This document shows, in pieces, positions 17,085 to 31,632 of a DNA stretch of 39,050 nt (positions are counted from its first letter, which is position 1; each line of letters begins with the position of its first letter). The notes under the pieces were generated by a model, which was not told where the DNA came from, made no database searches, and saw only the letters and a list, made by a program, of their open reading frames with translations. This DNA comes from Oscillospiraceae bacterium. GTDB taxonomy: Bacteria > Bacillota > Clostridia > Saccharofermentanales > Saccharofermentanaceae. Location: the NCBI GenBank assembly GCA_902801755.1, contig CADCJM010000028.1, forward strand, positions 1-39,050, read 5' to 3'. The position numbers and the translations under genes are program-made.

Positions 17085-17143
17085 TTGTCGGTTTTGTCGG
17101 CTTTTCTGTCGGTTTTTATCAAAAGTTGAGACTAAAACCGACA
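17085..17143. promoter_or_regulatory. TGTCGG repeat element between engB and comEC
   Basis: Three direct copies of TGTCGG occur at 17086-17091, 17095-17100 and 17107-17112, each preceded by a T-rich stretch. The inverse ACCGACA ends at 17143, so TGTCGGTTTT (17107-17116) and AAAACCGACA (17134-17143) form a perfect 10-base inverted repeat around a 17-base loop. A similar array precedes the pseudopilin operon at 28853-28890. The repeats are spaced about one helical turn, as in sites for dimeric or oligomeric activators. The regulator is unknown. Confidence 0.5.
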
Positions 17144-17154
17144 AGCGGCCGCAT

Positions 17155-17160
17155 TAGAAT
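17155..17160 (+). promoter_or_regulatory. -10 box placing the comEC transcript start at its ATG
   Basis: TAGAAT lies six bases upstream of the comEC ATG, with no recognisable -35 and no Shine-Dalgarno. The transcript would start at or very near the ATG, giving a leaderless mRNA. The absent -35 fits activator dependence. Confidence 0.4.
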
Positions 17161-17166
17161 TTTAAC

Positions 17167-19554
17167 ATGAACAACTTTTATGGCAAAACAACACGAAAGA
17201 TAAGGCGCATGAGCCTTAAGGAACGGCTTGCTCTGTGGGCAGGAACGCGCCTTAATGAGATCGGGCTGCTTGGTATGGCTTTTTCAAAAAGGCCATTGCT
17301 GCTTCCTGCAATCCTGCTCCTGACATGCTGTTTTTTGAGTTACCTTACGGTAACCTTGATCCCGGCTGTTTGCCTGTGTATTACGGCCGCAGCAGTTTGT
17401 AGTTTCCAAGCCAAAAGAACCAGGTCTTATAATGTGGTCTTAACGGGTCTGATGCTCTGTTCGATCTTGTTATACGGCGGTTTTGTGATCTCGTCGGCGC
17501 TTAATGCGTATCAGGACCTGAATCAGGATGAATTCTGCTGCCGGATAACTTATCTGTCACGTGATCTTTCAGGAGATACGGACATAGTTGTCAAACTTAA
17601 CGGAGGCACTTATGCGGTGCTGAAATACTATGGAAATGACAGCAGGTATTCAGCTCTTAATACGGGTAATGTCCTTATCGTCAGCGGGAGCATCAGAGAT
17701 CCGGAGAAAGCCGGCAATCCGGGCGAATTCGATTACCGCGGATACCTAAGAAAACAGGGAATACTATATGTCATTAAGTGTGACAGCTTTGAGATTGCAG
17801 AAGAACCGGGTTTCCCGGCCAATATAACGGGACAAATCCTGAATCTGTTTTTCAGATTGAGGAAAAATGCGATAGAAGCAGTGACCGGAGGTTTTGATAA
17901 GACGTCGAAGGCTTTGGCGGCTGCTGTCTGTTTAGGAGACAAATCTCTTATTTCAGAAGAGGTAAGAAGAGACTTCAAAATGTCCTGCTGTTCGCATCTT
18001 CTGGCTGTGTCAGGTACTCATTTTTCCGGCTTTCTCGTGTGTCTTCCGGTGATCCTTAACAGCCTTAGGCTTAAGCGTAAACGGGCTTTTTTCGTACATG
18101 CACTGTTCTGTATTCTGATCGGCTGCATGACAGGCTGGAGCGATTCGGTTACAAGGGCTGCAATTATGAGCATTTGCGTATTTGCAGAGAGGGACTGGCT
18201 GTCGGCTTTAAGCCTTGCTTCGCTTGTAATGACACTGGCTGACCCGTTTTGCCCTTTATCGTCAGGATTTCAGATGAGCTTTTGTGCTGTGCTGGGAATA
18301 AAGATCTTCAGCAAAAGGATCTCGGAACTGCTTATGCGCTTGTATTTTAGTGAGAATCTGTCGTCAGTACTGGCTTCTGCGATTAGCGCTTCCCTTGGCA
18401 TGATCCCGTTCTGGTCAGATATTGCTATGAGGCCTGATATAGAACACCTTCTGATCCAGATGGCCGGCTCATTCATTGCCGGCCTGACATGCACTTTCTT
18501 TGTCCCGTGTGTCTTTCTTTGCGTGCTTTTCCCGGCATTATCGCAATTCTTATCTGCACCTTTTCTGGTATGCATTAAGTGCCTGCTCGGGATCGTTGAT
18601 CTCGGCTCTGGATTAAGCGAGAGGGGAGGGGCTCCTGTTCATCTGTCAGGAGGCTTTCTGCTGCTCCTCGGAGCCGTTGTCTTTCTGATGTTCCTGCCGC
18701 CCTGCACGATAAGACGTGTGTTTTTGAAGCCTTCCTGTCTGGTGTTGGCCGTATTTACCGGATTTTCGATAGTCCAGGTTGTGAAAAAGCCTGACGTAAG
18801 GTTAGTTTTCGCAGACGTAGGACAGGGGGACTGCTGCCTGATTATGACTCCGGCCGTGACTTGTCTTATAGATGCCGGGACCTATGAGGAAGGGGCTTCC
18901 ACTGTAAGTGATTTTCTGGATTATTACGGAATATATCAGGTCGATGTCTGTATCATGAGCCACTGGGATGTAGATCATGCCGGAGGAATTGCCGCTTTAT
19001 GCGCGCAGGGGCGGACAAAGAAGATCCTGACATCTTATGTGCCCGGGCCTGATGATCACGACAGGGATGTCTCTGATTTCTTCAAGTCCACAGGTATGAA
19101 AGATGCTGATAAAGCCATATTTAAAGGGCAGCTTGAGCCTGTACTGGCAGGTGACAGGATAGCCCTCTCTGAATCTGTAAATATCGATGTTTTATATCCT
19201 TATAAAAGCAGCGGAGGCGGAAATGAGGAAAGCCTTGTCCTGATGCTTAACATTAACGGGAAGGAAGATACGTCGGTCCTTTATACCGGAGATATAGGAA
19301 AACTGACTGAAGATCTGCTGGTAAAAGACGGGTGCAATCTTGACTGCGATATCTTAAAAGTCGCTCATCACGGCTCGAAATATTCATCCGGCAGCGATTT
19401 CCTGGACAGGTGTTCGCCTGAAATAGCCGTAATCTCAGTGGGAGCACATAATTTCTACGGCCATCCCGCACCTGCCACGCTTGAACGGCTGGAACATACC
19501 GGCTGTAAAGTATTCAGGACAGATCAGGAAGGGGCAGTTGTACTGGAATATTAA
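17167..19554 (+). CDS. comEC: Competence protein ComEC/Rec2 DNA-uptake channel
   Basis: This 795-residue membrane protein carries transforming single-stranded DNA across the cytoplasmic membrane. Two hydrophobic helices (about 36-80) precede an extracellular DUF4131-like region with PEKAGNPGEFDYRGYLR. Next is the multi-helix competence domain (about 255-530; SHLLAVSGTHFSGFLV and GWSDSVTRAAIM are hallmarks). The C-terminus is a metallo-beta-lactamase-like domain with FADVGQGDC, SHWDVDH (598-604), YTGDIG and VAHHGSKYSS. All domains are present at full length, so the gene looks intact. No ribosome binding site precedes the ATG at 17167; an in-frame ATG at 17209 is an alternative. The start of the gene is flanked by the TGTCGG repeats. 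Confidence 0.93.
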   Translation: MNNFYGKTTRKIRRMSLKERLALWAGTRLNEIGLLGMAFSKRPLLLPAILLLTCCFLSYLTVTLIPAVCLCITAAAVCSFQAKRTRSYNVVLTGLMLCSILLYGGFVISSALNAYQDLNQDEFCCRITYLSRDLSGDTDIVVKLNGGTYAVLKYYGNDSRYSALNTGNVLIVSGSIRDPEKAGNPGEFDYRGYLRKQGILYVIKCDSFEIAEEPGFPANITGQILNLFFRLRKNAIEAVTGGFDKTSKALAAAVCLGDKSLISEEVRRDFKMSCCSHLLAVSGTHFSGFLVCLPVILNSLRLKRKRAFFVHALFCILIGCMTGWSDSVTRAAIMSICVFAERDWLSALSLASLVMTLADPFCPLSSGFQMSFCAVLGIKIFSKRISELLMRLYFSENLSSVLASAISASLGMIPFWSDIAMRPDIEHLLIQMAGSFIAGLTCTFFVPCVFLCVLFPALSQFLSAPFLVCIKCLLGIVDLGSGLSERGGAPVHLSGGFLLLLGAVVFLMFLPPCTIRRVFLKPSCLVLAVFTGFSIVQVVKKPDVRLVFADVGQGDCCLIMTPAVTCLIDAGTYEEGASTVSDFLDYYGIYQVDVCIMSHWDVDHAGGIAALCAQGRTKKILTSYVPGPDDHDRDVSDFFKSTGMKDADKAIFKGQLEPVLAGDRIALSESVNIDVLYPYKSSGGGNEESLVLMLNINGKEDTSVLYTGDIGKLTEDLLVKDGCNLDCDILKVAHHGSKYSSGSDFLDRCSPEIAVISVGAHNFYGHPAPATLERLEHTGCKVFRTDQEGAVVLEY

Positions 19555-28828: not shown

Positions 28829-28857
28829 GCGTCCGTTTTAACGGGCGTTTTGTTTTG
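28829..28857 (+). terminator. Rho-independent terminator after the hydrolase gene
   Basis: CGTCCGT (28830-28836) pairs with ACGGGCG (28841-28847) around a four-base loop, with one extra G-T pair, followed by TTTTGTTTTG. The T-rich tail runs into the TTTTGTCG repeats. The upstream part of this 192-base gap (28749-28828) shows nothing else recognisable. Confidence 0.72.
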
Positions 28858-28919
28858 TCGATTTTGTCGGTTTTTGTCGAGTTTTGTATGGTAAATTAAA
28901 GGCTTTTCCATTGTAGAAT
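28853..28919 (+). promoter_or_regulatory. TTTTGTCG repeat array and -10 box of the pseudopilin operon
   Basis: TTTTGTCGA (28853-28861), TTTTGTCGG (28862-28870), TTTTTGTCGA (28871-28880) and a weaker TTTTGTATG (28882-28890) repeat every 9-10 bases. They are followed by a TAGAAT -10 box (28914-28919) with no recognisable -35, then GGAGG and the ATG at 28941. The same motif and -10 occur before comEC. This suggests an activator-controlled promoter; the regulator is unknown. Confidence 0.5.
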
Positions 28920-28940: not shown

Positions 28941-29258
28941 ATGTCTTCATTGGAATCCGCTGTATGTTTTTCTCTTATCCTTGTCCTTCTTGCTTTCATG
29001 ATAGCAGGCCCGGAAACAATAGCTCTAGATTCTTTTCAAATGGCCAAAGACGGCGGAAATGAGCTTTTTTACATGGAAAAGGACCGGGATGTTCTATACA
29101 AAAACAATGTGAGGGGCGTCGACTGTTACGATGCTTCGCCTGAAAAACTCTGTACATTTCTCACGGGCATCTCGGACAACTTCAGGCTTTTCTATGGAAC
29201 TACATTCGATCTTGCGAATGCAAAGCCCGGAAAGGAGGCTCCGGATGAGGAGAATTAA
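28941..29258 (+). CDS. TadE-like minor pseudopilin lacking a leader peptide
   Basis: This 105-residue protein opens MSSLESAVCFSLILVLLAF, the hydrophobic helix of a TadE/F-type pseudopilin. It aligns with the mature N-terminus of the gene at 30622 (SVTLESAIAFTVTLV). The rest is a small extracellular domain with one Cys pair candidate (C62, C71) and an acidic tail. The start is firm: AAGGAGG is close upstream and an in-frame stop at 28914 rules out a longer leader. It thus begins where prepilin peptidase would normally cut, with Glu at position 5. It is first in a three-gene operon and overlaps the next gene by 14 bases. Likely a component of a pilus or DNA-uptake pseudopilus. Confidence 0.68.
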   Translation: MSSLESAVCFSLILVLLAFMIAGPETIALDSFQMAKDGGNELFYMEKDRDVLYKNNVRGVDCYDASPEKLCTFLTGISDNFRLFYGTTFDLANAKPGKEAPDEEN

Positions 29259-30621: not shown

Positions 30622-31632
30622 ATGAAAAGTAAGAATAAACGCGGCTCAGTGACTTTGGAATCGGCGATCGCGTTCACGGTCACGTTAGTCTTTATCGCAT
30701 CGATCGTATCTGCCATAGATTTTTACCGCACGGATATCCTTATGAGAAGGTCAGTTGAGCAGACATGCGAGAAAATGGCGCTCCTTTATCCTGTCTCGGT
30801 ACCTGCAAGTGATCTGGTATCCTCTGCAGTCAATGCTTTTCCTGATCTCGGGATCGGGAATACCAAAGGTGCCGAAGTCATAGCCAAGGTGGCATCCGCA
30901 GGCATGGGGCTTGACCAGAAGACAGGTCATACGATCAAGGAACTGATCCTTCAGGGACTGTTCTCGAAAACAATGGAAGAACAGATAAGAAAAGCCTTTA
31001 TCGAGCGGAACGGAGGCTCTGACTTCTTTGCGCCGGAAGAGATCAATGTGTTTTTCGCTGTAAACGACAGACACAACATAATTGAGGTTGTCACCGATTA
31101 CTCGGTCGTGACAATAGCAGGAAAGAAGACCAGGAGCATTTATTCGGTTATTCCGCTCTATGGTGAGCCTATCCTGATGCTTAACGGGGAAGAACACCTT
31201 GAGAACGGGGAAAAGGACAAAGACGGCATCTGGTCGCTTAATAATTTTGACAGGGGAGATGCGTTCAGGGAAAAGTACGGAGCAAATCTTCCAAAGACAT
31301 TTCCTGTAGTGGATTCAGTCAACGGGGGCGAGGTTACGGCTATAAGGAGCATCGATCTGACTTCGCCATACTATCAGGACACGAAGAACATCGAAAAGAA
31401 GATAATGGCCGATATCAAGTCTCTCAAGAACTTTGAACCCCAGACTGCCACGATAAACGGACAAAAATACAGTGTCGACAGGGTTGATTCCAGACATCTT
31501 AAGGTTATAATACCTGAAAACTCCGGCCCGATTGGCAAGGAAACCATTGAGAATCTTAAGGGATATGCCTTTGTCCAGGGCGTTATACTCGATATAAGCG
31601 AATACGGGACCTCGGAAAGATACAGTAACTGA
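30622..31632 (+). CDS. TadE-like pseudopilin with large C-terminal domain
   Basis: This 336-residue protein has a classic short basic prepilin leader: KSKNKRG followed by SVTLESAIAFTVTLVFIAS. The Gly before the cleavage point and Glu at mature position 5 match TadE/type IV pilin-like precursors processed by a prepilin peptidase. The remaining ~300 residues are soluble and unrecognised, and would lie outside the cell; this is much longer than ordinary TadE (~150-200). It is 15 bases after the DUF5702-like gene with AAGGAG upstream. No Tad ATPase, TadB/C platform or prepilin peptidase is in the window, so those must be encoded elsewhere if the system works. Confidence 0.75.
   Translation: MKSKNKRGSVTLESAIAFTVTLVFIASIVSAIDFYRTDILMRRSVEQTCEKMALLYPVSVPASDLVSSAVNAFPDLGIGNTKGAEVIAKVASAGMGLDQKTGHTIKELILQGLFSKTMEEQIRKAFIERNGGSDFFAPEEINVFFAVNDRHNIIEVVTDYSVVTIAGKKTRSIYSVIPLYGEPILMLNGEEHLENGEKDKDGIWSLNNFDRGDAFREKYGANLPKTFPVVDSVNGGEVTAIRSIDLTSPYYQDTKNIEKKIMADIKSLKNFEPQTATINGQKYSVDRVDSRHLKVIIPENSGPIGKETIENLKGYAFVQGVILDISEYGTSERYSN

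Follow-up and report, generated by a model that had tools for sequence, protein, structure and literature searches.

Phased TGTCG arrays mark a putative competence regulon in a genus of Clostridia and point to a receiver-less Spo0A-type protein as its possible regulator

The window analysed here, a stretch of 39,050 nucleotides, is contig CADCJM010000028.1 (C28) of the draft genome GCA_902801755.1 (1.92 Mb, 89% complete), from an Oscillospiraceae bacterium of the family Saccharofermentanaceae. It carries on its forward strand the gene of the DNA-uptake channel ComEC (17167..19554), identified by the Pfam Competence domain (PF03772) and a metallo-beta-lactamase domain. Upstream of comEC, three TGTCG boxes start at positions 17086, 17095 and 17107 of the forward strand (span 17086..17111), an arrangement that is conserved in relatives. 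A fourth box, CCGACA, in inverted orientation (17138..17143, reverse strand), lies between this array and the -10 hexamer TAGAAT (17155..17160, forward strand), and is kept in close relatives at -28 from the comEC ATG. Because the hexamer sits 6 nt before the ATG, the comEC mRNA is predicted to be leaderless.

A second array of three TGTCG boxes (28856, 28865 and 28875; span 28856..28879), again on the forward strand, lies upstream of an operon of pseudopilin-like genes, which is preceded by arrays in other genomes as well. The -10 hexamer TAGAAT (28914..28919, forward strand) follows 39 bp past the last box. The genes of the operon, all on the forward strand, encode a 105-aa pseudopilin-like protein with an N-terminal hydrophobic segment (28941..29258), a pseudopilin-like protein assigned by Pfam to DUF5702 (PF18960; 29131..30606), whose true start is probably downstream of 29131, and a 336-aa TadE-like pseudopilin (30622..31632; N-terminal GSVTLESAIAFTVTLVFIASIVSAI). 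The last of these scores exactly at the Pfam threshold against the nuclease-fold family PF21111, a match that is probably spurious.

An initial annotation of the window had placed the boxes 69, 60 and 48 bases upstream of TAGAAT at comEC, and 58, 49 and 39 bases upstream of it at the pseudopilin operon. The inverted fourth box at comEC had not been listed there, nor had TGTCG been recognized as the core of the Spo0A box. All six distances were reproduced when recomputed from the coordinates, and these two arrays are indeed the only ones in the window, as had been remarked. Pairs of TGTCG separated by 2-8 nt occur four times, against 0.36 expected, a number not reached in any of 100 shuffles; none of 400 dinucleotide shuffles gave a triple array, of which the window contains two.

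The search was extended by pattern searches to whole genomes. In the genome to which the window belongs, pairs of boxes counted at all spacings showed no excess over the reversed control (49 vs 53), and the subset of pairs with T-rich spacers stood out. The T-rich arrays precede yifB/comM-dprA, a Tad operon (encoding CpaE-like, CpaF ATPase, T2SSF and FHA proteins), comEC, the pseudopilin operon and two paralogues of a family of about 266 aa, and one more lies at a contig end. Boxes are also present at comEA (contig C6), where the middle copy is degenerate and one copy is inverted. A two-box array on contig C63 (L036:5830), flanked by a MATE-like gene and the end of pheT and followed by many further boxes in both directions, has no clear downstream gene.

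Across the genus, arrays of at least three TGTCG at a spacing of about 10 bp were found upstream of comEC, comEA, comM/yifB-dprA, recA-recX, the Tad/Flp motor operon, the DUF5702 pseudopilin operon and a family of nuclease-like genes, ComEA and RecA being identified by Pfam. A single cis element is shared, in other words, by genes for the uptake channel, the DNA receptor, the handling of ssDNA and the pilus (comEC, comEA, dprA, comM, recA, tad and the pseudopilins). The initial annotation had suggested comEA, comF, dprA and tad or pil genes as possible further targets; the scan returned comEA, comM-dprA, recA, tad and pseudopilin genes besides comEC, and comF, for which no separate search was made, was not among them. 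In nine genomes (G005, G006, G007, G011, G017, G099, G110, G126 and G128, with yifB placed separately in G006 and G007), there are 51 strict arrays, of which 45 are followed by a competence, pilus, recombination or nuclease-like gene.

The three-copy pattern is present in 32 of 39 genomes of the genus, in most of which the reversed control gave few matches, and the strict pattern was matched about 150 times in 118 genomes of the order, against no match of the reversed pattern. Strict arrays occur in 29 of 35 same-genus genomes, being absent from the other six, and elsewhere in only three genomes with one match each; of these last, the match in G116 stands before a Tad operon, and that in G042, from a different family, before a comEC-like gene. 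It should be noted that the genomes are related, so that these counts are not independent. Two TGTCG copies 8-12 bp apart were found upstream of comEC in 17 of 30 loci and upstream of yifB in 20 of 30, and when all 1024 five-mers in these upstream regions were ranked, TGTCG and shifted versions of the repeat unit (TTGTC, TTTGT) came out at the top. The arrays are conserved across ComEC proteins sharing 36-64% identity. Arrays at random sites, or a lack of conservation upstream of comEC in close relatives, would have refuted the initial annotation; neither was seen, since the arrays stand before competence-type genes and are kept upstream of both comEC and yifB-dprA. The existence of a competence regulon marked by a shared array is strongly supported by these data. 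As to the further proposal that the array is the binding site of a competence regulator, targets and conservation speak for a regulon, and the regulation itself is inferred, in the absence of bench data.

The nuclease-like proteins of this regulon form a family of about 260-270 aa (e.g. L035:6352-7152 and L037:125-937, with orthologues in most genomes), usually present in at least two copies per genome and with the ATG about 60 bp past the first box. Fourteen members share invariant or near-invariant E, K-Y-E, P-D, E, G and K residues, and no Pfam match was found at E <= 5. On the strength of this motif only, the family is a candidate PD-(D/E)XK-like competence nuclease. It would resemble CoiA and other PD-(D/E)XK competence proteins in that a protein of a competence regulon carries a nuclease-like motif (E...KYE...PD...E..G...K), although it is a separate family, often with at least two copies per genome and without a Pfam match at the above threshold.

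The arrays have a regular position relative to the promoter. In 98 non-redundant arrays, 175 of 214 gaps correspond to a box spacing of 10 bp, and a TANNNT hexamer lies 28 or 29 bp past the last box in 58 of them, compared with about 1.9 per offset in the background. A second peak is found at 39 bp, about one helical turn further out, and the offset in comEC promoters is 48-50. Offsets of this 10-bp type indicate helical phasing; moreover, placing the -10 element at -12 to -7 brings the end of the last box to about -36, in the position of a -35 element. The absence of a -35, pointed out by the initial annotation for the two promoters of the window, extends to the genus, in that -35 matches in array promoters are not beyond chance (2.29 vs 2.41 in shuffles), and a normal sigma-A promoter with a -35 element is therefore unsupported. 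The placement of an array before a -10 element without a -35 is the geometry of an activator. In 18 of the 58 promoters, the ATG follows the -10 by 6 nt, the same distance as at comEC, from which leaderless mRNAs are predicted for comEA-type and nuclease-type genes. Several of these promoters have the inverted CCGACA as well, close upstream of the -10.

A candidate for the protein acting on the arrays is encoded outside the window, on contig C45 of the same genome (7015-7536, minus strand). This protein of about 180 aa, the only Spo0A_C protein of the genome, is 96% identical to its counterpart in the rumen MAG RUG12748 and 94% identical to that of a Saccharofermentans sp. MAG, so that the organism can be placed among rumen Saccharofermentans-type clostridia. 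Its sequence matches the Spo0A chains 1LQ1 and 1FC3, and the fold of its C-terminal half is that of the Spo0A effector domain (VIA Z 12.6 to 1FC3 and 11.9 to 1LQ1, the next, unrelated match being at 5.5). The Spo0A_C domain (PF08769) was matched by 52 of 53 members of the family at E <= 1, the first member reaching 25.7 bits, barely over the cut-off of 25 bits. Residues E140, R141 and R144, invariant both in a set of 16 and in a set of 53 sequences, align with the ERxxR of Spo0A, where their counterparts in the 1LQ1 complex are the base-contacting residues.

No member of the family matched the receiver domain Response_reg (PF00072) at E <= 1, and it is for the lack of a recognizable receiver that the protein is classed as Spo0A-type and not as Spo0A. 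For the N-terminal segment of only about 66 aa, the fold search gave no structural match with Z >= 2, a negative that by itself carries little weight. Residues D19, D50 and R52 are invariant in this part, and judged by eye it resembles a shortened beta-alpha-beta receiver start with D19 and D50, a resemblance supported neither by Pfam nor by the fold search.

The gene lies after ligA-fthC and before the HU gene and adjoins no array target; no array was found within 300 bp upstream of it, on which basis autoregulation through an array was rejected. Exactly one such gene is present in 37 of the 39 genomes of the genus. It is missing from G006 and G022, which also lack the adjacent ligA; because ligA is an essential gene, a true absence was rejected and assembly gaps are the likely reason. 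The family is found throughout the order, including relatives without strict arrays, and as nearly all strict arrays come from a single genus, co-occurrence alone cannot single out the regulator. SpoIVA is absent from all 39 genomes of the genus (a match was obtained in the Bacillus subtilis control), and the cells appear, from their gene content, not to make spores. In a survey of Firmicutes, Spo0A_C was regarded as a domain restricted to Spo0A response regulators (PMC6136694). In the literature available to us, which did not include subscription papers or preprints, we found neither a receiver-less Spo0A-type protein nor competence control by one; likewise, no paper uniting Spo0A, competence and the Tad pilus was found there, and the few with Spo0A, comEC and dprA concern other systems.

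There are no binding data to connect this protein with the boxes, and the connection is inferred from the domain family, the contact residues and the core of the box. Spo0A contacts G2, C4 and G5 of TGTCGAA, and mutations at these positions lower binding about 10-fold in Clostridioides difficile (PMC3485338); the three bases all fall inside the conserved TGTCG of the arrays. The isolated DNA-binding domain of Spo0A binds and acts without phosphorylation (PMC3485338), so that a regulator that has lost its receiver could still be active. It is conceivable, even if unlikely, that the arrays do serve the competence regulon as operators but are bound by an unrelated and as yet unidentified transcription factor, the Spo0A-type protein regulating something else. 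The occurrence of the family in relatives without strict arrays would fit such a situation, as would the lack of a direct link between protein and box and the position of its gene away from any target. However, TGTCG is the exact core recognized by Spo0A (PMC3485338), the three invariant residues align with the E-R..R of Spo0A, and in each genome this is the only protein with a Spo0A_C domain.

We consider it probable that a receiver-less Spo0A-type protein activates the competence regulon through phased 0A-box-like arrays, with the identity of the binder, its activating role and the uptake of DNA by the cells being inferences from sequence. Protomers of the protein would occupy successive TGTCG boxes head to tail on a single face of the DNA. 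The last of them, near -36, would contact sigma-A in the way reported for Spo0A at spoIIG (Schyns et al. 1997, cited in PMC12090719). Recruitment of sigma-A RNA polymerase by the bound regulator to promoters having only a -10 is proposed because the nearest box ends near -36, where a -35 would be. In this way comEC, comEA, comM/yifB-dprA, recA-recX, the Tad/Flp motor operon, the pseudopilin operon and the PD-(D/E)XK-like nuclease family would be switched on, and the N-terminal domain may sense a signal other than that of a receiver.

The boxes could also be repressor sites, through which the protein would hold the regulon off until a signal arrives. Spo0A both represses and activates, and most 0A boxes at spo0A have a repressive effect (PMC12090719); in addition, comEC, comEA and some of the nuclease-like genes have the inverted box CCGACA immediately before the -10. 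This appears rather improbable, though, considering that the boxes lie upstream of the core promoter and do not overlap it, and that a fixed phase to the -10 and an absent -35 suit activation. Finally, while short T-rich repeats can expand, and near-identical arrays do occur at several loci in some genomes, it is hardly credible that the arrays are a mobile or structural repeat family, or a product of chance in T-rich intergenic DNA, without a regulatory role, because chance is rejected by the shuffles and by the reversed-pattern controls, and the lack of a role is refuted by the functional restriction of the targets and the phasing to the -10, to which the strand bias and the conservation across divergent comEC genes can be added.

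The proposed activator system shares with Spo0A and the 0A box of B. subtilis and C. difficile the TGTCG core, the Spo0A_C fold, the E-R..R at the recognition helix and the presence of several boxes per promoter. It differs in the size of the regulator and its lack of a recognizable receiver, in the targets, which are competence and pilus genes and not sporulation genes, and in the boxes, which form long arrays phased at 10 bp with G, T or A usually following the core instead of the canonical AA. Like the ComK, ComX/SigH and Sxy/TfoX-CRP regulons, it would join comEA, comEC, dprA, recA and pilus or pseudopilus genes under one cis element, but with another class of regulator and box, with a pilus of the Tad type, and with comM/yifB and the nuclease-like family included. 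In Micrococcus luteus, two separate tad clusters, one of motor genes and one of TadE/F-like minor pilins, are both needed for transformation (PMC4322843). The same split of motor and minor pilins is observed here, with both clusters marked by arrays; M. luteus, however, is an Actinobacterium without a described control of the Spo0A type. With somewhat less confidence, we are inclined to think that in a non-sporulating lineage the Spo0A DNA-binding domain, cut from its receiver and joined to a new small N-terminal domain, may have become a master activator of competence, acting via phased arrays at partly leaderless promoters, with uptake by a Tad pilus.

If this is true, the regulator of competence, the site it binds and the regulon it governs would be named for abundant rumen Clostridia, in which we came across no report on transformation or how it is controlled. 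It would also imply a fate of Spo0A after the loss of sporulation and predict DNA uptake through a Tad pilus in Firmicutes, and overexpression of one small protein could offer a handle for transforming gut Clostridia that are hard to manipulate.

Targets outside competence are toxin-antitoxin-like genes in G030 and one or more genes each in G005, G006, G011 and G099. At three loci of G030 (L188, L192 and L194), arrays about 1 kb from the locus edge stand before RelE/HTH-like and HicAB-like toxin-antitoxin genes and a nuclease/transposase-like gene, which suggests that the regulon may have captured extra genes there. In G023 (L288/L372) and G006 (L353), a perfect array stands before the gene for a 196-aa protein (MSTTTNEQQK...); downstream of this gene come a WYL-domain regulator and alaS. 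In G005 (L180), the DUF5702 pseudopilin operon is separated from its array by an IS110-type transposase gene, which probably severs the operon from its promoter.
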